Assembly (NCBI RefSeq): GCF_038050405.1
Contig: NZ_CP150901.1
Location: 4,154,001 to 4,218,000, forward strand
DNA length: 64,000 bases
Reading direction: 5' to 3'
Source: Paraburkholderia sp. IMGN_8
Lineage (GTDB): Bacteria; Pseudomonadota; Gammaproteobacteria; Burkholderiales; Burkholderiaceae
The number at the start of each line of letters is the position of its first letter. Position 1 is the stretch's first letter. The position numbers and the translations under genes are program-made. The notes below the pieces were generated by a model. The model saw nothing but the letters and a program-made list of their open reading frames with translations. It was not told where the DNA came from and searched no databases. This document shows, in pieces, positions 8,655-22,000 of the stretch.

Positions 8655-9461
8655 TCAGTCCAGCTTCAACGCTCCGGCAGCCAGTTTGCCGATGTCCATA
8701 TCGATGTCCGGGGTCTCGCCTGTCTCGAGAATCCACGCCGCGGACAGTCCCGACCACGCCAGAATCCATTGCAGCAAACGGCGTCTATCTAGCCCGGCCA
8801 ATTGCGCGACATGTTCGACGCGCCGCTCGAAGCGTCCGGGCGCCAATGCGGACTGCCGGTCGGGGTTGCAGAAAATGTTCGCATAGTCGAAACCGCGCTC
8901 GCCATAGAGGCCTTTCGGGTCGATTGCCAGCCAGCCGCGCGGGCCGAAATCGAGCACGTTGCCGTGATGGATGTCGCCGTGCAGCACGACCGGGTCTTGC
9001 GGGGCGGCAAGCAGCGCTTGCGCCGCTGCGGCACTTTCAGTGAGCCAGCCGCCGTATTGTTGTGCTGCCGGCCAGAGACTTTGAAACCAGCGTGGCAATC
9101 CGATCAGTTCGGGTAGCGGCTTGTTACGGGGCGCGTGCAGTCGCGCAGCGGCTGCGCAGAGGATCTCGGTGGCGGCGTCGTCGGCGTCGCTGTCACCCGT
9201 GCGGACTTTGTCCGCGAGCGCGTGGCTGTTTTGTGCGCGCTCGAGCAGTATCGCGTCGGCATCGTGCGCCAGCACGCGGGCCGCGCCGTCGCCGTCCCAC
9301 CACACCATCAGCTGCACGCCGGATTTCTCTTCGGCTTCCAGCGCGACCTTCAGCATCGCTGCGACGCCGTGCCGGCGTACCGGCAGAAGCCGGCTGCTGT
9401 GCGTGCGGATCGGCTCGCCGTCCGGCAGCAAATCCCACTTGACGATGTACTCGGCGAACAT
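8655..9461 (-). CDS. aminoglycoside/hydroxyurea-type phosphotransferase (APH(6) family kinase)
   Basis: 268 residues. The kinase signature VVLHGDIHHGNVLDFG gives the catalytic loop with its Asp and Asn. AIDPKGLYGERGFDYANIF supplies the metal-binding Asp and the GERGFD tail that characterises the APH_6_hur family, which contains streptomycin 6-kinases and hydroxyurea kinases. The N-lobe is less conserved. Most chromosomal members have no proven antibiotic substrate, so resistance is a possibility and not an assignment. The start lies 6 bases after the stop of the truncated racemase-like ORF (9468-9764) on the same strand, suggesting co-transcription. Confidence 0.85.
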   Translation of the reverse strand: MFAEYIVKWDLLPDGEPIRTHSSRLLPVRRHGVAAMLKVALEAEEKSGVQLMVWWDGDGAARVLAHDADAILLERAQNSHALADKVRTGDSDADDAATEILCAAAARLHAPRNKPLPELIGLPRWFQSLWPAAQQYGGWLTESAAAAQALLAAPQDPVVLHGDIHHGNVLDFGPRGWLAIDPKGLYGERGFDYANIFCNPDRQSALAPGRFERRVEHVAQLAGLDRRRLLQWILAWSGLSAAWILETGETPDIDMDIGKLAAGALKLD

Positions 9462-10567: not shown

Positions 10568-11104
10568 TCACGCATCGCCATCTGCAAACGCCTTGAGCGC
10601 GTCGCCCGCCAGCCGGTAGCGGACCCACTCGCTTTGCGCGCTCGCACCGATCGATTTGTAGAAGCCGATGGCCGGCTCGTTCCAGTCGAGCACGCTCCAT
10701 TCGAAGCGGCCGCAGCCCGTGTCGCACGCAATGCGTGCGAGGTGGCGCAGCATCTGTTTGCCCGCGCCGCTGCCGCGCGACTTCGGCGACACGTACAGGT
10801 CTTCCAGATAAAGCCCTTGCATGCCGAGCCACGTCGAATAAGAAAAGAAGTAGACGCAGAAGCCAACGGGCTCGCCGTTCATCTCGCAGATCAAAGCCTT
10901 CGCGGTGGATTCGGCCGAGAACAGGCTCGCTTCGATATCTTGGACGGTAGCGACAACCTCGTGCTCCGCTTTCTCATACACCGCGAGTTCGGTGATGAAG
11001 CGCAGAATCAGAGCGGCGTCGGATGTGTGGGCGGGGCGGATGTGGATGGTCAAGGTAAGGTGCTCGGTCGGTTTTGAATGTCGATCGAAGTTTTGCGAGT
11101 ACAC
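10568..11104 (-). CDS. GNAT family N-acetyltransferase, diamine/spermidine acetyltransferase-like
   Basis: 178 residues from a GTG at 11104; an in-frame TTG at 11053 (TIHIRPAHTSDA onwards) is closer to where the domain begins and may be the real start. The sequence IRPAHTSDAALILRFITELA is followed by FFSYSTWLGMQGLYLEDLYV and the acetyl-CoA motif SPKSRGSGAGKQMLRHLA. The C-terminal FEWSVLDWNEPAIGFYKSIG is strongly reminiscent of the SSAT/YncA-like diamine acetyltransferase branch. It likely acetylates a small amine. Single gene, convergent with the flavin reductase. Confidence 0.86.
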   Translation of the reverse strand: MYSQNFDRHSKPTEHLTLTIHIRPAHTSDAALILRFITELAVYEKAEHEVVATVQDIEASLFSAESTAKALICEMNGEPVGFCVYFFSYSTWLGMQGLYLEDLYVSPKSRGSGAGKQMLRHLARIACDTGCGRFEWSVLDWNEPAIGFYKSIGASAQSEWVRYRLAGDALKAFADGDA

Positions 11105-11210: not shown

Positions 11211-11240
11211 TTGACGCGTCGTCGCAAAATCGCTTACTGT
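11211..11240 (+). promoter_or_regulatory. candidate sigma-70 promoter of the threonine leader
   Basis: TTGACG (11211-11216) and TACTGT (11235-11240) are separated by 18 bases. Transcription would begin close to the ATG of the leader peptide at 11247, which has no Shine-Dalgarno, so the leader might be translated from a nearly leaderless transcript. Inferred from sequence only. Confidence 0.4.
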
Positions 11241-11246
11241 CGATCC

Positions 11247-11333
11247 ATGGACTTCCACTCGATTCCCTTCGCTGCCGTCACCACCACGACGACCACCTTC
11301 ACAGGCGGGTCGTCTGGAGGTTGCACGCGCTAG
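11247..11333 (+). CDS. threonine leader peptide (28 residues, six consecutive Thr codons)
   Basis: ATG 11247 to TAG 11331 encodes MDFHSIPFAAVTTTTTTFTG followed by GSSGGCTR. Codons 12-17 are ACC ACC ACG ACG ACC ACC, with two more Thr codons at 19 and 27, giving 8 Thr in 28 residues. This is the signature of an amino-acid-sensing leader peptide (compare thrL of enterobacteria, which mixes Thr and Ile; here only Thr is enriched). The Thr run lies inside the first arm of a pause hairpin and is followed by an antiterminator/terminator pair and a threonyl-tRNA synthetase gene at 11451. Stalling at uncharged tRNA-Thr would therefore favour read-through into that gene. Confidence 0.85.
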   Translation: MDFHSIPFAAVTTTTTTFTGGSSGGCTR

Positions 11334-11370
11334 AAGCACGAAGCAGTGGCAAACCACCAAAGGCCCCGCC
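11288..11370 (+). promoter_or_regulatory. attenuator: pause hairpin and antiterminator arms
   Basis: Three mutually exclusive pairings can be drawn. Pause hairpin: GACGACC (11288-11294, within the Thr codons) pairs with GGTCGTC (11308-11314). Antiterminator: 11304-11324 (GGCGGG ... GGAGGTTGC) pairs with 11349-11370 (GCAAACCACC ... CCCGCC), an almost fully complementary 21/22-base match with a few mismatches. Terminator: see 11357-11396. A ribosome stalled on the Thr codons would mask 11288-11294 and leave region 11304-11324 free to form the antiterminator. This is the classical trp/thr-type architecture, read directly from complementarity. Confidence 0.8.
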
Positions 11371-11396
11371 GGAAACGGACGGGGCCTTTGGCGTTT
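11357..11396 (+). terminator. intrinsic terminator of the threonine attenuator
   Basis: A perfect 12-bp stem, CCAAAGGCCCCG (11357-11368) with CGGGGCCTTTGG (11380-11391), closes an 11-base loop that can itself form CCG-GAAA-CGG. It is followed by CGTTT. The T tract is short. It lies 55-95 bases before the synthetase start, and its left arm overlaps the antiterminator arm. Confidence 0.8.
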
Positions 11397-11450
11397 CTGG
11401 ACCTTCGTTTGCGGCATCAATCTGCGGCATCAATCAAACGGAGCGTGACT

Positions 11451-12665
11451 GTGAACGACATCGATCATCGTGTACTGGGCAATAAACTCGACCTCTTCCA
11501 TCAGCAGGAAGAAGGCGTCGGCATGGTGTTCTGGCACCCGCGCGGCTGGGAGCTTTACCGCGTGCTCGAAGACTACATCCGCGCCCGTATGCGGCGCGCC
11601 GGCTTTCGCGAGATTCGTACGCCGCAATTGCTGGCGCGCTCGTTGTGGGAGCAGAGTGGCCATTGGGAGAAGTTCGGCGCGGCGATGTATTCGCTGGCCG
11701 ACGCGGAAGAAGGGCGCGCGCTGTGCCTGAAACCGATGAGTTGTCCGTGCCATGTGCAGGTGTTCAATCGGCGCGTGCGGTCGTATCGCGAGTTGCCGGT
11801 CCGCTATAGCGAGTTCGGCGCCTGTCATCGCGACGAGCCTTCGGGCTCGCTCGAAGGTCTGAAGCGCACGCGTGCCTTCGTGCAGGACGACGCGCATGTG
11901 TTCTGCACGGAGGCGCATATCGAGACCGAAGTCGGCCGCTTCTGCGAATTGTTGCGCACGGTCTATGCGGACCTCGGCTTTCCCGCCTTCAAAGTAGCGC
12001 TCGCCACGCGGCCTGCGATGCGCGCAGGCAACGATCAAACGTGGGATCGCGCGGAAGCCGCATTGACAAACGCGGCCCGCGCGGCGGGCCTCGAATTCGA
12101 TGTACTCGAAGGAGAGGGCGCCTTTTACGGGCCGAAACTGGAGTTTCATCTAACGGATAGCCGCGCGCGCAGCTGGCAATGCGGCACGATTCAACTCGAC
12201 TTCGTGCTGCCTGATCGGCTCGATGCGGAGTTCGTCAACGAGCGGAATGAACGCGAGCGTCCCGTGATGATCCATCATGCGGTGCTTGGCAGCATGGAGC
12301 GCTTCATTGCAATGCTGCTGGAACATCACGAAGGATGGCTACCTGTGTGGCTCGCACCCGAACAAGTCGTGGTCGCGACAATCAGCGACGCAAATACGGC
12401 GTACGCGCAACAGACCATGCAAGCGCTCGACGCCGCCGGTATCAGAGCGCTGCTCGACAAGCGGCCGGAACGGCTGGAAAAGAAGATCGTCGATGCGCGC
12501 GAAAAGCAGGTGCCGATTCTGGTCGCGGTAGGTTCACGCGATGAACGCGATCGGACGATCAGCATTCGCATGCGCGACGGGCGGCAATCGACGCTTGCGA
12601 TGGCGGAGGGCGTCGAGCGGTTGCGGCTCGCCACGTCACCCCCCGCCTCTTTCACCTCTTTTTAG
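11451..12665 (+). CDS. short threonyl-tRNA synthetase lacking TGS and editing domains
   Basis: 404 residues from GTG 11451, which has CGGAG 7 bases upstream; the GTG at 11445 is too close to that site. The class II catalytic core and anticodon-binding domain are complete. LKPMSCPCHVQVF, FGACHRDEPSGSLEGLKRTR, QDDAHVFC and MIHHAVLGSMERF supply motifs 2-3 and the zinc-binding Cys, His and His that correspond to E. coli C334, H385 and H511. The TGS and second-site editing domains that occupy the first 240 or so residues of normal ThrRS (about 640) are absent. No infC-rpmI-rplT follows, so this is probably a second copy and not the housekeeping thrS. It is controlled by the attenuator at 11247-11396. 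It could be a stress or inhibitor-resistant isoform. Confidence 0.9.
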   Translation: MNDIDHRVLGNKLDLFHQQEEGVGMVFWHPRGWELYRVLEDYIRARMRRAGFREIRTPQLLARSLWEQSGHWEKFGAAMYSLADAEEGRALCLKPMSCPCHVQVFNRRVRSYRELPVRYSEFGACHRDEPSGSLEGLKRTRAFVQDDAHVFCTEAHIETEVGRFCELLRTVYADLGFPAFKVALATRPAMRAGNDQTWDRAEAALTNAARAAGLEFDVLEGEGAFYGPKLEFHLTDSRARSWQCGTIQLDFVLPDRLDAEFVNERNERERPVMIHHAVLGSMERFIAMLLEHHEGWLPVWLAPEQVVVATISDANTAYAQQTMQALDAAGIRALLDKRPERLEKKIVDAREKQVPILVAVGSRDERDRTISIRMRDGRQSTLAMAEGVERLRLATSPPASFTSF

Positions 12666-12823: not shown

Positions 12824-15800
12824 ATGAATAAGGCGACCTATCGGCTGGTTTTCAGCCGACTCGGAGGCATGCTGGTCGCGGTCGAGGAGACCCCTGCGGG
12901 AACCGGCAAGAGCAATCGGGGAGAAACCATAGGAGCAGGGCGAGGCGTATCTGGTGCGCAGCGCCTATCGTCGTTCGCGTTCAGGCATATTGCCTTTGCG
13001 GCGCTGATACTGATCGGCACGGCACCTCTGCACGCCGACGCGCAGATTGTGCCATCGGGTGCGCACGCGCCCGGCGTCATCCAGACGCAGAACGGTTTGC
13101 CGCAGGTGAACATTGAGCGTCCGTCGGGCGCTGGCGTGTCCATGAACACGTACTCGCAATTCGACGTTCAGAAGAATGGTGCGATCCTGAACAATTCGCC
13201 GACGCTAGTGCAGACACAGCAGGCGGGGTATGTGAACGGCAATCCGAACCTTGGTCCAGGACAGTCGGCACGGGTCATCGTCAACCAGGTCAACAGCAAT
13301 TCGCCGTCGCAGTTGCGCGGCTATCTTGAGGTCGCAGGTAAGCGGGCTGAAGTGGTGGTCGCCAATCCGAACGGCATCCTGGTGGACGGCGGCGGGTTCA
13401 TCAATACGACGAGAGGCATCCTCACGACCGGCACGCCGTTGATCGGCGCGGACGGCAATCTGAACGGCTTTAAAGTTACGCGCGGCAATATCGCCGTACA
13501 GGGTGCGGGCCTGAATACGGCGAACGTCGATCAGGTCGATCTGATCGCGCGAGCGGTGCAGGCCAATGCGGCGATCTACGCGAAAAATCTGAGTGTAGTG
13601 ACGGGCGCGAACAGCGTAGATCACGACACGCTTGCCGCGACGCCGATCGCAGGCGATGGTCCTGCGCCTGGCGTGTCGATCGACGTGAGCAGTCTCGGCG
13701 GCATGTACGCGAACCGTATCGTGCTGCTGGGCACCGAAAACGGTGTTGGCGTGTCCACTAAAGGCGTGCTTGCGGCGCAGGCGGGCGACCTGATACTGAC
13801 CACGCAGGGGAAGCTGATTCTCGCGGGACAGACTAACGCGAGCGGCAATATCGCGCTGTCCGCGCGTGACGGGATCGACAACAGCGGGACGACATACTCC
13901 CAGCAGAACGTCAGCGCGAATACGTCGGGCGCGCTCACAAACAGCGGCGTGCTCGCCGCGCAGCAGAACGCGACCATCGGCGCGGCCAGCGTCGCTTCAA
14001 CGGGCATACTCGGCGCGGGCGTGAACGGCAATGGCAGCCTTGCGCAATCCGGCGACCTGTCGGTGACGACGGGCGGCACACTCGCGGCGACCGGCCGCAG
14101 TGCGGCGGGCCGCAATGCGACCCTGAGCGGTGCAGCGGTCAATCTCGGAGGAAGCAGTACATCGGCTAATGGTTCACTCAAGCTCACGGCGAACAGCGGC
14201 GACCTGAACCTGTCTGGCGCGACGGTGACAGCGGGCGGCATGCTTGACGCACGCGCGGCCGGGACGCTGACGAACGACGGTGGTGTGCTGTCGTCGGGCG
14301 GTGGACAGACCATCACGGCTGGCGGGCTGTCGAACCACGACGGCCAGATCGTTTCGGGCGGCGCGCTGACGGAAAATGTTGCTGGCTCCGTCGCGAACCA
14401 GGGTGGGACGATGCAGGCGGCGGGCGCGCTGTCCGTTACAGCCGGTTCGCTCGACAACACGGGCGGTCATATTGCGTCGCTGAACGCGGACGGCCTGACG
14501 CTGACCACAGGCGGCTCGCTGAACAACGGAGTGGGTGAAACCGGGGCCGGCATCATTGGCGGCAACGGAAATGTGACCGTACAGGCCGGACAGATCGCGA
14601 ACGCAGGGTCGATTACGGCCGTCCAGAACCTGATTGCGACGGCCGTGCAGACGCTATTCAACGGCGGCACGCTGGCCGCGAATGGCAACATCAACGCTTC
14701 GGCTGGCACGACACTGACGAACGCCAGCACGATAGCCGCCGGTCGAACGGCAGCCCTTACCGGTGCCACGTTCGACAACAGCCAGGGCACGACGAACGCC
14801 GACCAGCTCACGTTGCACGCGACGAACCTGGCCAATCACGGCGGCAGTATCACGCAGACGGGCATGGGCGCGACGACCATCGACGTGACCGGCATGCTCG
14901 ACAACTCGGGCGGCACGCTTCAGACCAACGGCGACAGCCTCGCACTCGGCCCCGCCGCGCTCGTCAACGACAACGGCACGATTGCCAGCTCCGGTGCCGG
15001 AACGCTGTCGGTCAATGTAGGCACGCTCTCGAACAACGGCGGGACGATTGCGACGAACGGCGGCCTTGATGTCCGCTCGGGCGCGGCATTGAATCGCGGC
15101 GGCACGCTCGCGGCGCAGACGGGCGCGACGCTCAATGTCTCCTCGCTCGACAACAGCGCGGGCGGCTACGTCGGCGCGCAGACGGTGTCAATCACTGACA
15201 CGGGCGCACTCAACAACGCGGGCGGAACGATCCAGGCGGACGACGCGCTTTCAGTATCCGCGCAGTCGGTTGCCAATGACGGCGGCTCGATCGCGAACAG
15301 TGGTACGGGCACGACGACGGTGAGCGCCAGCGGCGTGGTCACGAACACGCAGAATGGTCTGATCGGCGGTAACGGAAACGTATCGGTGTCGGGCGGCAAC
15401 ATTGGCAATGCAGGCGGCACCATCACGGCGGGCGGCGCGACAACCGTGCAGTCTGGCAGCACGCTCGACAACCGGGCGGGCATGATCCAGGGCAGCGGCA
15501 ATGTGTCGGCGGCGGCGCAAGGCGCGATCGACAACACGGGCGGCCAGATCGAAGCGGACGGCACGGGCGCGACGCTTGCCGTCACGGGTGCATCGCTCGA
15601 CAACACGAACGGGCGCATCGCGAACACAGGATCGGGCGCGACGACAGTCAGCGCCGCTGGAATCACAAACAGCAATACAGGCGGCGTCGCTGGCGCGGGC
15701 ACCATCGGCGGCAACGGTGACGTGACAGTGAACGCGGGTACGCTGTCGAACACGAACAGCGCGCAGCTCGTGTCGGGCCATGACCTCACGCTGAACATCG

Positions 15801-18800
15801 CGCAACTGGCGGACAACACGAACGCGACGCTCTCGGGTGCGAACAATGTCACGCTCAACGGCCCCAACGCGGGTGTCACCAACGCGGGCGGCTCGGTCCA
15901 CGGTAACGGCACGATTGCGGTGAACACGGCCTCGTTCGACAACACGTCGGGCCGCGTCGGCAACGATACGGGTAGCGGCGGCTCGGTGTCCGTCAATACC
16001 GGCACACTTGCGAACCAGAACGGCGCGATCGGTAGCGACCAGGACCTGAGCGTGGTGACGGGTACGCTCACGGGCGACGGACGGATCGTCGCCGGGAACG
16101 ACGGCGCGATCACGATTGGCAGCGACTACGCACTTAACCGCACCAACCAGATTCAGGCGAACCACGACCTGACTTTCACGACCGCGGGCACGTTCGCGAA
16201 TCAGGGCACGCTCGGCGCGGTGAACGCGCTGACTGTGAACGCTGCGAACGTGGATAACCAGGTCGGTGCGGACATCAATTCGTCGAATACGACGGTCAAT
16301 GCCGCGAACACGATCACGAACGAAGGCCGTATCGAAGGCGATTCAGTGACGATGCATAGTGCGTCGCTGACCAACACTGCAATGATCGTTGGTAACACGG
16401 TCACGCTTAACGCCGGCTCGATCGCAAACACGGGCGCGGCGGCGGCCATGGCAGCGGCTTCGCAGCTGAACCTGTATTCGCCCGGCGATATAACGAATAC
16501 GGGCGGCGCAAATATCTTCAGTCTCGGCGACATCAACATCGCGGCCGATGCAGCGCGCGACGCCAACGGCGTGCTCGCGAACCGCGCGAATTCCGTCGCG
16601 AACGATCAGTCGACGATCGAGGCACAAGGAAATCTGGAAATCGCGGCGCAGACGCTGACGAACACGCGCCCCGCTCCCACAGTCGAGACCGTGACGACCG
16701 GTGTCGATACGGTTCATCAGACCAAGCGCGACAAATACGTCGGCTGCGCGACGACTAATGCCAACGGGAAAGCCGGGTGCTCGCAGTCGGCGTGGGACAG
16801 CGGCTACAAATCGCCGGCAACGGCGACCTACAGCGGCGCCGATATCGTATCGAGCCAGAGCGGGCCGAACGCAACCGAACGCGTGCTGGTGGTGAACGTC
16901 AACGGTCAGCCGCAGACGATCTGGTACAACGCGATCACGGCCAATTCCGACGGTACGGTTACGGTCAACTACTGGGACGACTACAACCCGAACGTCAACT
17001 ACGACCCCGCTACCGAGTACGCGACGCGCAGCGACGGACACAAAGGCTACCAGCGCGTCGAGATCGCACGGGACACGACGACCACCACGCAGCAGGATCA
17101 GGTAACAGGGCCGCAGGCACAGCAGGCGCAACTGCTTGCGGGCGGAAATATGACGCTGGCGAACGTCGGCACGCTCAACAACAGCTTTAGCGCGATTGCG
17201 GCCGGTGGCTCAATCCAGATCGGTAGCAGCGAGCAGGACGGCGCGATTGGCAACGGCAGTGGCAACTACGGCGGTACGCTCGTCAACAACACTGGCCAGA
17301 CGCTTTACCAGTATCAGAAGCAGGACATCGTCTCGACTTACGCGTGGAACGAAGACATCACGCGCGACGTGGGGACGGTGGTCGAACCGTCGATTGTGCT
17401 CTCGCCCGTTGCCATCGGCGGTACCGGCGGCACGATCATCGCGAACAACGCGGTGCAGATCAGCGGTACGGACATCAGCAATACGAACGTGGCGGCGGCA
17501 AACTCGGCGACAGGCGCGACCGGCGGCACGCTCGGCGCGAACGGGACCGGGGGTGGCCTCACGGGCGGCGGCGCGCAGACCGTCAACCTCGCAACCGGTC
17601 AGACGCAGACGATCAACGCGCCGCAGTCCGTCGCGGGGCCGACCGGCGCGCTCAATATCACGTTGCCGTCGAGCGGCCTGTACACCTTTAACACTGCACC
17701 CGGCGCTTCGTATCTGGTCGTCACCGATCCCCGATTGACCAGCTATACGAATTTCATTTCAAGCGACTACATGCTTGGACAACTCGGGCTCGACCCGTCG
17801 AAGACCATCAAGCGGCTGGGCGACGGCGTGTACGAAGAACAGATGGTGCGCAACCAGATCACGCAGCTGACGGGCCGCGTCTATCTCCAGGGGTACACCA
17901 GCAACGAGGACGAGTACCGCGCGCTGATGAACAGCGGCGTGCATGCCGCGCAGGAGTTCAATCTTGTTCCGGGTATGGCATTGACTGCCGCGCAGATGGA
18001 TGCGCTTACCAGCGATATCGTGTGGCTGGTCAGTCAGACCGTCGCGCTGCCGGACGGCAGCACGCAGCAGGTGCTGGCGCCAGTTGTCTATCTCGCGCAT
18101 GCGCATGCGAATGACCTGCAACCGACCGGCGCACTGATCGCCGCCGACGATGTCGAGATTCACGCTACCGGTAGCGCGAGCAACTTGGGGGTCATCAAGG
18201 GTGGCACACAAACGGTTATCAGCGCGACCAACATCCTGAACCGGGGTGGTTCGATCGGCAGCAGCATAGACAATGGCGCGACCGTTGTATCGGCGACAAA
18301 TGACGTGGTCAACGCGTCAGGCCAGATCACCGGCAATCGGGTTGCCGTGCTCGCCGGTCATGACATCGTGAACACGACGCTGGTTGACGCGGTCGGCGTC
18401 AGTTCGGTCGCGGGCAACAGCAAGGTCAGTCAGACGCTGCTCGGCACGCAAGGCACGATTGCATCGACGGGCGACATGATCGTGTCGGCGGGCAACGACC
18501 TGAGCGTGCATGGCGCGAACATCACGGCGGGCGGCGATGGACAGATCACGGCGGGCCACGACATCACGGTTGATGCGGTGCAGTCCACAACCTCGCAATC
18601 GGTGACGCTGAACGACCAGCACCATTGGGAAGCGGCCAGCACCACCAACGAGACCAGCGCGATATCGGCAGGCGGCAGCCTGGCGATGCAGAGCGGCAAC
18701 GACATGACGCTCAAGGGGGCGACGGTCAGCGCGGGCGGCGATATGGCTGTCGTGGCGGGCAGCAACCTGACTGCGACGACCGTCACGAATACCGCGACCT

Positions 18801-21800
18801 ACAACAACGTCGCAACGGACGACCGCACGCGCAAGGAAGTCGATCATGCCTATGACGAGCAGGCGGTTGGGACGAGCTTTACGGCGGGTGGGAATGCGAC
18901 GCTGGCGGCAGTCAATACGACGGATGCGAGCAAAGGCAATGTGACGCTGACCGGCTCATCGCTGACAGCGGGTGTGACGGATGGCGCGGATAACGGCACG
19001 GGCGCGGCGACGATCGCGGCCACTGGCAACGTGACGATCAACGAAGGTCGTGAGGAACACGACAGCGCGAGTGCGGTGGAGTCGAAGCGCGGTAGTTTCA
19101 TCGGCGGCTCGACCACCGATACGTCGCAGAACACGCAGGCGAATATTGGTGTGGCAAGCTTGGTGTCGGGGGATTCGGTGACCGTGCAGGCCGGTGAGGA
19201 CCTGACAATTCGGGGCAGCAATGTGGTTGGCACGAACGACGTGAAGCTGGGTGCGGTCGGGAACGTGAACATCACCACCTCGCAGAACACGGCCACGCAA
19301 GACAGCTACTACCACCAGACCCAATCAGGCCTGATGACAGGTGGCTTGAATGTCACCATCGGTCATTCGTCACTGACGGATACCGACCACGCCACGAGCG
19401 TGACGAACAACGCGAGTGTGATCGGTTCGTCAACGGGCAACGTGTCGATCACGGCGGGCCATGACCTCGGGGTCACGGGCAGCAATGTCATAGCGGGCGG
19501 TAATGTGGCGCTGACCGGCCAGAACGTCACGGTCGGTTCGGCCTACGACACCTACAACGAATCGCAGGCGCAGCAGTTCAGCCAGTCGGGCCTGAGCATC
19601 GGCCTGGGTGGAGGTCTGGTGGGCCTGGGACAGGGAATGGCGAGCACCGTGCGCCAGGGCGTGCAGACGGACGACTCGCGCTTGGCTGCCGTGCAGGGTG
19701 TGGCCGCTGCCGAGCAGGCGTACCAGAATCGCGGAGCCATCGAGGGAGCGGCAGACGCGGTAACGAACGGCAATGCGAGCGACGCGACGCAGGGCCTTCA
19801 GGTGCGGGTCAGCATCGGGTCGAGCCACACCAGCAGCAATGCCAGTACGTCGATCACGCGCGCGAAGGGTTCGTCTGTCATCGGCAATGGCAACGTGACG
19901 ATGACGGCAACCGGTACGCCGGAGGCGAACGGCAACGCGCAAGCCGGTACGGGCGACATCACCATGACCGGCGCGACGGTGATGGGGAAGAATGTCACGC
20001 TCGACGCGAATAATGCGATCACTCTGCAAAGCGCGCAGAGCACGGAGCAGGACAGCAGTTCGAACAGTTCGGGTGGCTGGAACGCCGGGGTGGCGCTGGG
20101 TGTCGGGAAAAACACCGGATTCAGCATCTTTGCGAACGCGTCGAACGCACACGGCCAGGGCAACGGCAGCAGCGTTACGCAGGACGATACGACCGTCGCG
20201 GCAAGCGACACGCTGACGATGAAATCGGGCGGCGACACGACGCTCGCGGGTGCGCAGGTATCAGGCAATACGGCGAAGGTCGATGTCGGGGGCAACCTGA
20301 CGATGACGAGTGTCCAGGACACGTCGGACTACGCGAACAACCAGCACAGCAGCGGAATCAGCGGCAGCTTTACGTTTGGCTACGGCGGTGGCGTGGACCT
20401 GTCGATTGGTCATACCAGTATCGACTCCAACTATGCGTCGGTAAACCAGCAGACCGGCATCGTGGCCGGCACGGGCGGTTTCGACGTGAACGTGGCTGGG
20501 CATACGCAACTCAACGGCGCGGAGATTGCGAGCGCCGCTCCAGCTGGCAGCAACAGCGTGACGACCGGCAGCTTCGGATACTCGGATATCCAGAACTCGA
20601 TGTCGTATTCGGGTTCGTCGGAAGGCTTCTCGCTGTCGAACGGCCCGAGCTTTGCGAACACGGGGGACAGCGCGCGCGGGGTCACGCAGGCGGCTGTCAG
20701 TCCGGGAACGATTACGGTGAAGTCGGGCCAGCAGAACGGCACCGACAGCACGGTGGGCCTGTCGCGCGATACGGCCAATGCAAACCAGACCGTACAGAAC
20801 ACGTTTAACCTGCAGCAGGTGCAGAACAACCTGGCCTTTGCGCAGGCGTTCGGCAAGGTGGCAACGACTGCGGCTGGGCAGATTGCGGACCAGCTTGAGA
20901 ACAGCAACCCGGCCTTTGCGGAGGGCGGCGTCGCGCGCGACGCGATGCACGCGGCGGTCGCGGCCATCGGGGCGGCGTTGTCGGGCGGAAACATTGCAGG
21001 GGCAGTCGGCGGGTCTCTGGCGGGCGACGTGTTGCAGTCGCTGGCAAATCCGATCATCGAGCAGGCCGTCGCGCAGGTCCCGCCCGAGAATCGGACTGCG
21101 TTACGTAATGCGCTGAATGAGATTGTTGCGACGGCGGGTGGTGTAGCGGGTGGCGCGTTGACAGGCGGCGGTTCGTCGGGCGCGCTGGCGGGAGCGGGTG
21201 CGGCTATCGACAATGAACGGTTCAACCGGCAGTTGCATCCTGAAGAGAAGACGCTCGCAAAGCAGATCGCGGACAAGAGCGGTGGCAAGTACACGCAGGC
21301 ACAGGTCGAAGACCAATTTCGTATCATGGGCGTAAGCGTGAATGGAACAAGTGAATCCGGCGCACCGACGACCCTGATTGGCCAGACACCCACGGACTCG
21401 GGTGCACAATGGATATCGGCGGGAACAACGGCGGACGGCAAACCGATCCTGACGCAGGTCACGGCACAGGGCGATCCACAGTTGCAGAGCTACATTCTGG
21501 CGAACTACAACAGCGCTTCGTCGGGACAGGTGCCGAGCCAGTTCACGTATGCGCTGACAGGAAACAGCGGATCGATCAACCTGACGGGGCCATTCACGAA
21601 GTTCGATCAGTCGGATGCAGACTACATGCGTAATACGACAGCTGATACGGCTTCGATGATCTCTACGAATGCGGGGCGGTTCAGTGCGCTAACGGCCGCT
21701 GGTGCACAAATTCCATCGCCGTACTCTGCTGGACTCGCAGGAGCAGCTTATGCGGCAGCGGTTGCTGGATTTGGGGCTGACGTAGTGGCACAGCTAGTTA

Positions 21801-22000
21801 AACCGGATGTTGGGCAGTACGCCGTATCCGGCGTGACCGGGTTGATATCCGGGGAGCTGTCTGATCGAGTTCCAGGACTGGGGCCAGCTATTAATGAGAC
21901 TGCGAATACATTCAACAACAGCAAGGCTGGTCAGAAGACCCAGGATTCTTTGAATAACTATTGGAACAATTTCGTGAACTACTGGAGCGGGAAGCAGTGA
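12824..22000 (+). CDS. giant two-partner-secretion exoprotein (TpsA/CdiA-like filamentous hemagglutinin)
   Basis: 3058 residues. The N-terminus begins MNKATYRLVFSRLGGMLVAV, an extended signal peptide region (ESPR), followed by the hydrophobic core and cleavage region ending LHADAQ. The TPS secretion domain (about 70-320) carries the VVVANPNGILVDGGGFINT motif recognised by TpsB. Residues about 330-1300 are degenerate beta-helix repeats of the form N.GG.i.a.g.l.v.a..ldN. A non-repetitive island follows (about 1290-1450: QTKRDKYVGCATTNANGKAG and a Tyr/Asp-rich stretch), then hemagglutinin repeats with GHDI and GGNV units. The conserved pre-C-terminal region (VAQVPPENRTALRNALNEIV) leads to NERFNRQLHPEEK near residue 2797. 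The last 260 or so residues are variable, with a hydrophobic stretch and an Asn-rich tail, and resemble a CDI-type toxic tip. The transporter is at 25933. Confidence 0.93.
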   Translation: MNKATYRLVFSRLGGMLVAVEETPAGTGKSNRGETIGAGRGVSGAQRLSSFAFRHIAFAALILIGTAPLHADAQIVPSGAHAPGVIQTQNGLPQVNIERPSGAGVSMNTYSQFDVQKNGAILNNSPTLVQTQQAGYVNGNPNLGPGQSARVIVNQVNSNSPSQLRGYLEVAGKRAEVVVANPNGILVDGGGFINTTRGILTTGTPLIGADGNLNGFKVTRGNIAVQGAGLNTANVDQVDLIARAVQANAAIYAKNLSVVTGANSVDHDTLAATPIAGDGPAPGVSIDVSSLGGMYANRIVLLGTENGVGVSTKGVLAAQAGDLILTTQGKLILAGQTNASGNIALSARDGIDNSGTTYSQQNVSANTSGALTNSGVLAAQQNATIGAASVASTGILGAGVNGNGSLAQSGDLSVTTGGTLAATGRSAAGRNATLSGAAVNLGGSSTSANGSLKLTANSGDLNLSGATVTAGGMLDARAAGTLTNDGGVLSSGGGQTITAGGLSNHDGQIVSGGALTENVAGSVANQGGTMQAAGALSVTAGSLDNTGGHIASLNADGLTLTTGGSLNNGVGETGAGIIGGNGNVTVQAGQIANAGSITAVQNLIATAVQTLFNGGTLAANGNINASAGTTLTNASTIAAGRTAALTGATFDNSQGTTNADQLTLHATNLANHGGSITQTGMGATTIDVTGMLDNSGGTLQTNGDSLALGPAALVNDNGTIASSGAGTLSVNVGTLSNNGGTIATNGGLDVRSGAALNRGGTLAAQTGATLNVSSLDNSAGGYVGAQTVSITDTGALNNAGGTIQADDALSVSAQSVANDGGSIANSGTGTTTVSASGVVTNTQNGLIGGNGNVSVSGGNIGNAGGTITAGGATTVQSGSTLDNRAGMIQGSGNVSAAAQGAIDNTGGQIEADGTGATLAVTGASLDNTNGRIANTGSGATTVSAAGITNSNTGGVAGAGTIGGNGDVTVNAGTLSNTNSAQLVSGHDLTLNIAQLADNTNATLSGANNVTLNGPNAGVTNAGGSVHGNGTIAVNTASFDNTSGRVGNDTGSGGSVSVNTGTLANQNGAIGSDQDLSVVTGTLTGDGRIVAGNDGAITIGSDYALNRTNQIQANHDLTFTTAGTFANQGTLGAVNALTVNAANVDNQVGADINSSNTTVNAANTITNEGRIEGDSVTMHSASLTNTAMIVGNTVTLNAGSIANTGAAAAMAAASQLNLYSPGDITNTGGANIFSLGDINIAADAARDANGVLANRANSVANDQSTIEAQGNLEIAAQTLTNTRPAPTVETVTTGVDTVHQTKRDKYVGCATTNANGKAGCSQSAWDSGYKSPATATYSGADIVSSQSGPNATERVLVVNVNGQPQTIWYNAITANSDGTVTVNYWDDYNPNVNYDPATEYATRSDGHKGYQRVEIARDTTTTTQQDQVTGPQAQQAQLLAGGNMTLANVGTLNNSFSAIAAGGSIQIGSSEQDGAIGNGSGNYGGTLVNNTGQTLYQYQKQDIVSTYAWNEDITRDVGTVVEPSIVLSPVAIGGTGGTIIANNAVQISGTDISNTNVAAANSATGATGGTLGANGTGGGLTGGGAQTVNLATGQTQTINAPQSVAGPTGALNITLPSSGLYTFNTAPGASYLVVTDPRLTSYTNFISSDYMLGQLGLDPSKTIKRLGDGVYEEQMVRNQITQLTGRVYLQGYTSNEDEYRALMNSGVHAAQEFNLVPGMALTAAQMDALTSDIVWLVSQTVALPDGSTQQVLAPVVYLAHAHANDLQPTGALIAADDVEIHATGSASNLGVIKGGTQTVISATNILNRGGSIGSSIDNGATVVSATNDVVNASGQITGNRVAVLAGHDIVNTTLVDAVGVSSVAGNSKVSQTLLGTQGTIASTGDMIVSAGNDLSVHGANITAGGDGQITAGHDITVDAVQSTTSQSVTLNDQHHWEAASTTNETSAISAGGSLAMQSGNDMTLKGATVSAGGDMAVVAGSNLTATTVTNTATYNNVATDDRTRKEVDHAYDEQAVGTSFTAGGNATLAAVNTTDASKGNVTLTGSSLTAGVTDGADNGTGAATIAATGNVTINEGREEHDSASAVESKRGSFIGGSTTDTSQNTQANIGVASLVSGDSVTVQAGEDLTIRGSNVVGTNDVKLGAVGNVNITTSQNTATQDSYYHQTQSGLMTGGLNVTIGHSSLTDTDHATSVTNNASVIGSSTGNVSITAGHDLGVTGSNVIAGGNVALTGQNVTVGSAYDTYNESQAQQFSQSGLSIGLGGGLVGLGQGMASTVRQGVQTDDSRLAAVQGVAAAEQAYQNRGAIEGAADAVTNGNASDATQGLQVRVSIGSSHTSSNASTSITRAKGSSVIGNGNVTMTATGTPEANGNAQAGTGDITMTGATVMGKNVTLDANNAITLQSAQSTEQDSSSNSSGGWNAGVALGVGKNTGFSIFANASNAHGQGNGSSVTQDDTTVAASDTLTMKSGGDTTLAGAQVSGNTAKVDVGGNLTMTSVQDTSDYANNQHSSGISGSFTFGYGGGVDLSIGHTSIDSNYASVNQQTGIVAGTGGFDVNVAGHTQLNGAEIASAAPAGSNSVTTGSFGYSDIQNSMSYSGSSEGFSLSNGPSFANTGDSARGVTQAAVSPGTITVKSGQQNGTDSTVGLSRDTANANQTVQNTFNLQQVQNNLAFAQAFGKVATTAAGQIADQLENSNPAFAEGGVARDAMHAAVAAIGAALSGGNIAGAVGGSLAGDVLQSLANPIIEQAVAQVPPENRTALRNALNEIVATAGGVAGGALTGGGSSGALAGAGAAIDNERFNRQLHPEEKTLAKQIADKSGGKYTQAQVEDQFRIMGVSVNGTSESGAPTTLIGQTPTDSGAQWISAGTTADGKPILTQVTAQGDPQLQSYILANYNSASSGQVPSQFTYALTGNSGSINLTGPFTKFDQSDADYMRNTTADTASMISTNAGRFSALTAAGAQIPSPYSAGLAGAAYAAAVAGFGADVVAQLVKPDVGQYAVSGVTGLISGELSDRVPGLGPAINETANTFNNSKAGQKTQDSLNNYWNNFVNYWSGKQ

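Follow-up and report, generated by a model that had tools for sequence, protein, structure and literature searches.

The attenuator and its surroundings

The window, that is, the whole 64 kb stretch of DNA analysed, carries on its forward strand a threonine-rich leader, three overlapping RNA helices and, behind them, the gene for a short threonyl-tRNA synthetase (ThrRS). The adjacent upstream gene (10568–11104) lies on the strand opposite to the leader. The features, with the basis of each, are as follows.

11211–11216, + strand: −35 hexamer TTGACG of the predicted leader promoter (sequence reading)
11235–11240, + strand: −10 hexamer TACTGT, spacer 18, ending 6 nt before the leader ATG
11247–11333, + strand: leader peptide ORF MDFHSIPFAAVTTTTTTFTGGSSGGCTR, probably leaderless (ORF translation; conserved Thr-rich leaders)
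11280–11297, + strand: Thr codon run ACC ACC ACG ACG ACC ACC (sequence)
11288–11314, + strand: hairpin 1:2, pause or anti-antiterminator hairpin (folds at −14.9 kcal/mol)
11304–11324, + strand: antiterminator 5′ arm, GGCGGG and GGAGGUUGC (folding and alignment)
11349–11370, + strand: antiterminator 3′ arm, GCAAACCACC and CCCGCC, overlapping the terminator 5′ arm (folding and alignment)
11357–11391, + strand: terminator hairpin, then an imperfect T-tract to 11397 (−31.6 kcal/mol; alignment)
11440–11443, + strand: GGAG, probable ribosome-binding site of the ThrRS gene (sequence)
11451–12665, + strand: short auxiliary ThrRS, 404 aa, GTG start (TIGR00418, PF00587 and PF03129)

Elsewhere in the window an APH(6)-type aminoglycoside/hydroxyurea kinase domain (PF04655, 277 bits) is encoded at 8655–9461 on the reverse strand. 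The short thrS is directly followed, at 12824–22000 on the forward strand, by an ORF whose 3058-aa product contains TPS secretion and haemagglutinin-repeat domains.

The sequence-only reading had described a leader of 28 codons with six consecutive Thr codons, and this is what the ORF contains: 28 codons and a TAG stop, with two more Thr codons, ACA and ACG, downstream of the run. A run of six ACN codons occurs nowhere else in the window on either strand (0.006 would be expected from the frequency of AC), while runs of five occur twice.

Where does transcription of this leader begin? A TTGAC-like hexamer stands 35–37 nt 5′ of the leader ATG in 62 of the 68 loci measured, at 50 nt in two, and is absent from four. 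Since the promoter is thus kept in register with the ATG, we predict a leaderless leader mRNA. The spacing would place the start at about 11247, at the leader ATG itself, and not downstream of 11300, which would have spoken against attenuation. A generic scan of the window for promoters and terminators found neither element on the leader’s strand, and thus missed both.

Three helices that share sequence

The 154-nt leader stretch folds at −73.2 kcal/mol as against −51.6 ± 3.9 kcal/mol in shuffled sequences (z = −5.5), and none of 200 shuffles folded as low. The terminator consists of 12 outer and 3 inner pairs. When the terminator’s 3′ arm was withheld from the fold, the antiterminator (11304–11370) formed at −30.5 kcal/mol. 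Folded separately in this way, the three helices share sequence and overlap as a classical attenuator demands. Both the antiterminator (11304–11324 with 11349–11370) and the terminator had been proposed from the letters of the window, as had their mutual exclusivity; both fold as proposed, they overlap, and each shows compensatory changes among its relatives. The tail 3′ of the terminator is weak in the window copy (TTTGGCGTTTCT), so that termination may be partial here; two relatives (L242 and L245) have runs of six T at this point.

No Rfam family matched the window at gathering level, and hence neither the T-box nor Thr_leader did. Among ten loci of the attenuator family compared with Rfam at the same level, the only match was to C4 RNA, in the locus L346.

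The target is a spare threonyl-tRNA synthetase

What kind of enzyme does the switch control? The gene product scores 455.7 bits against TIGR00418, above the curated cut-off of 383.65, and we infer that it is an active ThrRS. An in-frame stop lies 39 codons upstream of its start. Its domains are PF00587 and PF03129 only, the catalytic core and the anticodon-binding domain; a Pfam domain search found neither the TGS nor the editing domain, and the protein aligns to residues 243–629 of the full-length ThrRS chain 1qf6. The same genome (9.1 Mb, two contigs) encodes a full-length ThrRS that is 52 % identical in the shared part. Given this full-length enzyme and the missing domains, we conclude that the target is an auxiliary, editing-less enzyme. 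The gene had been read as that of a ThrRS, which it is, but it is an auxiliary copy beside a full-length thrS rather than the housekeeping gene.

The closest named relatives of the short ThrRS are from Paraburkholderia, and the short enzymes that we compared span beta- and alphaproteobacteria. The locus is also present in Paraburkholderia xenovorans LB400 (L035). In a midpoint-rooted tree built from 48 selected sequences, all 24 short ThrRSs lie on one side of a branch with support of 100/100. The Acidocella copy (L040) is placed among those of Burkholderiaceae, which suggests transfer. The short ThrRS of the window keeps the residues aligned to the zinc ligands and to motif 2. At window residues 94–101, KPMSCPCH is found in 80 of 88 short ThrRSs as against KPMNCPGH in 62 of 75 full-length ones; this segment surrounds a residue aligned to a zinc ligand.

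Conservation and covariation of the switch

Of the 74 loci first counted as short ThrRS genes with an intact start, 72 were kept, the window included; the two that were removed (L085 and L100) look like frameshifted full-length genes. Four others (L112, L148, L152 and L075) had been left out, their matches either beginning late or extending past the contig end. At one of them, L148 in genome G152, the match to the short thrS does not start until residue 67, and a thrS-type leader (L179) lies about 5 kb off in opposite orientation; an insertion or inversion seems to have disrupted the locus. The 72 loci comprise 63 distinct leader stretches, nine records occurring in two collections.

The terminator motif is present at all 72 loci, in one case (L062) by a relaxed pattern only. 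Strong Thr runs, defined as 5 or more Thr within 8 residues of the leader, are found in 66; the other six leaders, all from Bradyrhizobium, have interrupted runs such as TTTATA. Homologues devoid of Thr codons would have counted against the attenuator, but none of these leaders is of that kind. By contrast, 75 full-length thrS loci used as a control have no comparable leader. At one of them (L086) a short ORF with four Thr codons lies far upstream, which we judge to be chance. Within the genus a close short ThrRS is encoded in 51 of 144 genomes (E ≤ 1e-180); four diverged short ThrRSs were met later, and others may have escaped.

Do the paired positions change together? We examined the named helices individually, because RNAalifold applied to the whole alignment gave the terminator and an unconvincing 5′ helix, and did not recover this pause hairpin. 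The alignment (A1) held 39 sequences less than 93 % alike and was compared with 500 shuffles. In the terminator 94.7 % of cells are paired and 5 pairs have two-sided changes, with 34 such cells as against 11.7 in shuffles; in the antiterminator 85.4 % of cells are paired and 6 pairs have two-sided changes, with 27 cells as against 10.6. Both cell counts lie above all 500 shuffles. The number of covarying pairs does not exceed the shuffles, 58 of the 500 being as high for the terminator and 154 for the antiterminator. When the antiterminator arms are slid against each other, as many as eight pairs show two-sided changes, but fewer cells are then paired. The GGCGGG–CCCGCC pairing is kept in 97 % of cells in A1 and in 98.9 % in a second alignment (A3) of 45 sequences, in which the terminator is paired in 86.1 %. 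In L062 an antiterminator C–G has become U–A at the cost of one terminator pair. Hairpin 1:2 is paired in 85.0 % of cells in the 39 sequences (22 of 500 shuffles as high), and its covariation there is not beyond that of shuffles. Judged on these alignments, covariation supports the terminator and the antiterminator, whose compensatory changes are what the earlier reading required of them, and hardly the pause hairpin; the proposed hairpin at 11288–11314 thus folds as described, but its covariation does not rise above the shuffles.

Might the hairpin be a mere terminator of upstream transcription, with a Thr-rich ORF that arose by chance in GC-rich DNA? Similar CCCCGCC terminators do stand before other genes that lack Thr leaders, and the T-tract is poor. 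But the upstream gene is on the other strand, and such a terminator would explain neither the conserved promoter and leader, nor the covariation of the antiterminator, nor the want of a comparable leader at full-length thrS. We consider this explanation very improbable, a chance origin being excluded mainly by the conservation across loci.

The same attenuator precedes other genes

Is the attenuator confined to short thrS genes? Two covariance models were used, R1 built from 39 thrS leaders and R2 from 45 sequences; downstream genes were identified in part by tblastn comparison with reference proteins and otherwise by eye. In the window’s own genome R1 recovered the window element with 135.6 bits; it also matched, with 58.5 bits, a second site (G000:C2:1159228–1159348, reverse strand; L194) before a DUF2917 gene, whose leader has no Thr run. 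Other matches in that genome (L157/L195 and L159/L196) were rejected by eye as an ordinary terminator and gene end with no leader start; the gene ending at one of them is presumably phasin-like. Across the genus R1 matched in 135 of 144 genomes (E ≤ 0.05). Twenty loci were fetched: 4 precede a short ThrRS gene, 7 an isochorismatase-fold hydrolase gene with a Thr leader, 6 a DUF2917-like gene, and 3 are chance matches or remnants.

The leaders in front of DUF2917-like genes (L194, L208–L210, L212, L266, L269 and L273) resemble the others in their C-terminal tail and terminator and have no Thr run. Pfam confirmed DUF2917 for L194 and L208; L211 had no Pfam match.

The isochorismatase-fold hydrolase (PF00857) is encoded in 17 of the 144 genus genomes (E ≤ 1e-40). 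All 17 copies are preceded by a Thr leader, for example MNLHAIARTTTTTTTASGGS, and the terminator motif was matched at 15. These 17 genomes do not overlap with the 55 of the genus known to have a short ThrRS, where an overlap of 6.5 would be expected; P is 1.5e-4 if genomes are treated as independent, which they are not. Hydrolase genes behind Thr leaders were seen at L214–L230, L282–L284 and L292.

Among 299 genomes of Burkholderiaceae, the genus included, 117 were matched at E ≤ 1e-5. The 42 loci inspected, some of which repeat genus members, comprise 15 short ThrRSs, 14 hydrolases (some partial), 2 transporters of the MFS type and 1 decayed remnant, 3 ABM-domain proteins (PF03992 was tested on one of the three), 1 full-length ThrRS, 3 DUF2917 genes and 3 loci without assignment. 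Beginning at the promoter, the MFS loci match short-thrS loci across the leader, the ribosome-binding site and about the first 17 codons, and then diverge, so that an MFS transporter was apparently placed behind a thrS start. Among NCBIfam models the MFS gene scores best against those of the multidrug efflux proteins MdtH and YdeE, falling far short of the cut-off in each case. In one genome of another genus (locus L305) a Thr leader likewise stands before a similar MFS gene.

Across the phylum R2 matched 25 of 398 genomes (E ≤ 1e-5). The 25 loci inspected comprise 5 short ThrRSs, 4 hydrolases, 9 DUF1127-type genes with non-Thr leaders and 7 others, mostly chance. Matches judged by eye to be chance or plain terminators (L274, L275 and L293–L299) were set aside. 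At Bradyrhizobium-like loci (L285, L286, L288–L291, L300, L302 and L303) a conserved non-Thr leader (for example ...MTRFGWAVGGVVR) and a similar terminator precede a small DUF1127-type gene, confirmed by Pfam for L285 only. In the Bradyrhizobium-like genus as a whole 26 of 146 genomes were matched at E ≤ 1e-12, and a minority of these loci was inspected.

In the genus g75, of the window’s class, 106 of 249 genomes were matched at E ≤ 1e-6. Fifty loci gave 22 hydrolases with Thr leaders, 1 MFS gene, 23 acetyltransferase-like genes, 1 further acetyltransferase-like gene with another leader, and 3 without assignment. Some g75 genomes have several hydrolase loci, as does G1021 (L343, L344 and L345). 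The leaders of the 23 acetyltransferase-like loci are about 20 residues long with 3–4 internal Met each, for example MNNICHTAMMRPYMTAFGGS (L346, L347, L350, L351, L353, L355, L356, L358, L361, L362, L366, L367, L369, L370, L372–L374 and L377–L382), and may represent a methionine counterpart of the Thr device. A 95-aa piece of the acetyltransferase-like protein had no Pfam match.

Does the switch answer to inhibitors of ThrRS?

In one genome (G182) a Thr attenuator precedes a second full-length ThrRS of 647 aa, which has FYSPK, and hence Ser, at the position of E. coli Gly463 and Met at that of Leu489; a further full-length ThrRS in the genome is 59 % identical to it. According to PMC11252418, G463S gives E. 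coli ThrRS resistance to obafluorin, 463 and 489 are the two positions substituted in ObaO, and substitutions at 463 also reduce sensitivity to borrelidin. Inspected by eye, the neighbours of the G182 gene within 30 kb did not resemble an obafluorin cluster. ObaO-type residues were sought in the short ThrRS as a possible explanation for it, without success: the window enzyme keeps Gly463 and Leu489. Among the short ThrRSs read, all 87 have Gly at 463, and 489 is Leu in 84 and Met in 3. Of 75 other full-length ThrRSs, 35 carry Met at 489, 6 carry Ala at 463 and 1 carries Ser there; the substitutions are therefore not unique to immunity enzymes.

The switch may thus serve mainly as a defence against natural inhibitors of ThrRS, which would refine the trigger: a poisoned housekeeping ThrRS would call up one of several effectors. 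We give this something approaching an even chance. The G182 enzyme with both ObaO substitutions, the hydrolase, which in the genus follows a Thr leader in all 17 copies and lies in no genome known to have a short ThrRS, and the MFS gene set behind the thrS leader and first codons, with its efflux-type best models below cut-off, all argue for it. Set against them are the Gly463 and Leu489 of the window enzyme and of short ThrRSs generally, the changes at 463 and 489 in other full-length ThrRSs, and the single instance of the ObaO-like case.

On the other hand, the spare ThrRS might aid charging when threonine or zinc is scarce. Attenuation by Thr codons answers threonine shortage as well as inhibition, and low zinc induces a second, editing-defective ThrRS in Anabaena (PMC4787780). 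But hydrolase, MFS and ABM effectors fit a threonine supply poorly, and the short ThrRS retains the residues aligned to zinc ligands. A response to threonine supply or stress seems to us rather unlikely.

A proposed mechanism

We conclude, with a probability of roughly 0.87, that the window contains a ribosome-mediated leader-peptide attenuator that monitors how well tRNA-Thr is charged and thereby controls a spare ThrRS gene. The transcript would begin with the leader ATG. When Thr-tRNA is abundant, the ribosome would reach the leader stop and cover segment 2, and the terminator would form. With Thr-tRNA in short supply, the ribosome would stall on the Thr codons and hairpin 1:2 would be masked; GGCGGG...GGAGGUUGC would then pair with GCAAACCACC...CCCGCC, blocking the terminator, and the editing-less ThrRS would be made. 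The direction of this response, expression when uncharged tRNA-Thr accumulates, is that expected from how such devices work.

What, then, sets the switch in motion? Because its relatives precede unrelated effectors, we think that the trigger is failure of the housekeeping ThrRS, through an inhibitor or through shortage of threonine. We read the family as one that detects a failure to charge tRNA-Thr and that has exchangeable effectors, which plausibly confer resistance to ThrRS inhibitors. In its most specific form, which we offer tentatively and at somewhat less than even odds, a mobile, leaderless Thr-codon attenuator before exchangeable effectors (editing-less ThrRS, ObaO-like ThrRS, hydrolase, MFS transporter, ABM protein) would provide inducible resistance to natural ThrRS inhibitors in soil proteobacteria, the hydrolase inactivating the inhibitor. 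As the window enzyme lacks the known resistance substitutions, its own trigger may be threonine shortage or another inhibitor. A spare target, an immunity-type target, a hydrolase and a transporter together resemble the usual repertoire of antibiotic resistance.

If this is so, codon-specific stalling of the ribosome would be a general sensor of synthetase poisoning, and the genes behind Thr attenuators would offer a route to resistance genes and, indirectly, to undiscovered ThrRS inhibitors. It also raises the question of why an editing-less ThrRS should be kept for times of stress only, when Ser-tRNA(Thr) errors should cost most.

Comparison with known systems

The mechanism of attenuation is already known; the regulon appears to be new. 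In the literature searched (titles and abstract openings, with subscription journals thinly covered) we found no leader-peptide attenuator described for thrS, isochorismatase or the other targets.

One counterpart is the thr leader of E. coli (Rfam RF00506, Thr_leader), with which the window attenuator shares a Thr-codon leader, pause hairpin, antiterminator and terminator. The RF00506 model aligns end to end (1–118 of 118) with the window leader, but at 19.3 bits, as against a gathering cut-off of 55. The E. coli leader controls biosynthesis rather than a synthetase and senses Ile as well.

Leader-peptide attenuation of aminoacyl-tRNA synthetase genes is described for pheST in gammaproteobacteria and predicted for trpS and leuS in Streptomyces (PMC1262725). 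Those systems concern Phe, Trp and Leu, whereas the present one concerns Thr and a truncated synthetase, and its family also stands before genes that are not synthetases. One of the Streptomyces attenuators involves an auxiliary, antibiotic-resistant synthetase.

ObaO is likewise a second ThrRS, and the G182 copy behind a Thr attenuator shares both of the substitutions given for it in PMC11252418; the window enzyme differs in being short and in having Gly463 and Leu489. The Anabaena ThrRS T2 also represents a duplicated, stress-induced ThrRS with impaired editing (PMC4787780). However, T2 is under Zur control and its editing domain is degenerate, while that of the window enzyme is absent. Finally, the trpL (rnTrpL) leader of Sinorhizobium meliloti also encodes a leader peptide, and its RNA starts at the ATG of that peptide (PMC7298713). 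It differs from the present leader in serving Trp; its start at the ATG is reported, whereas ours is predicted from the spacing of the promoter.
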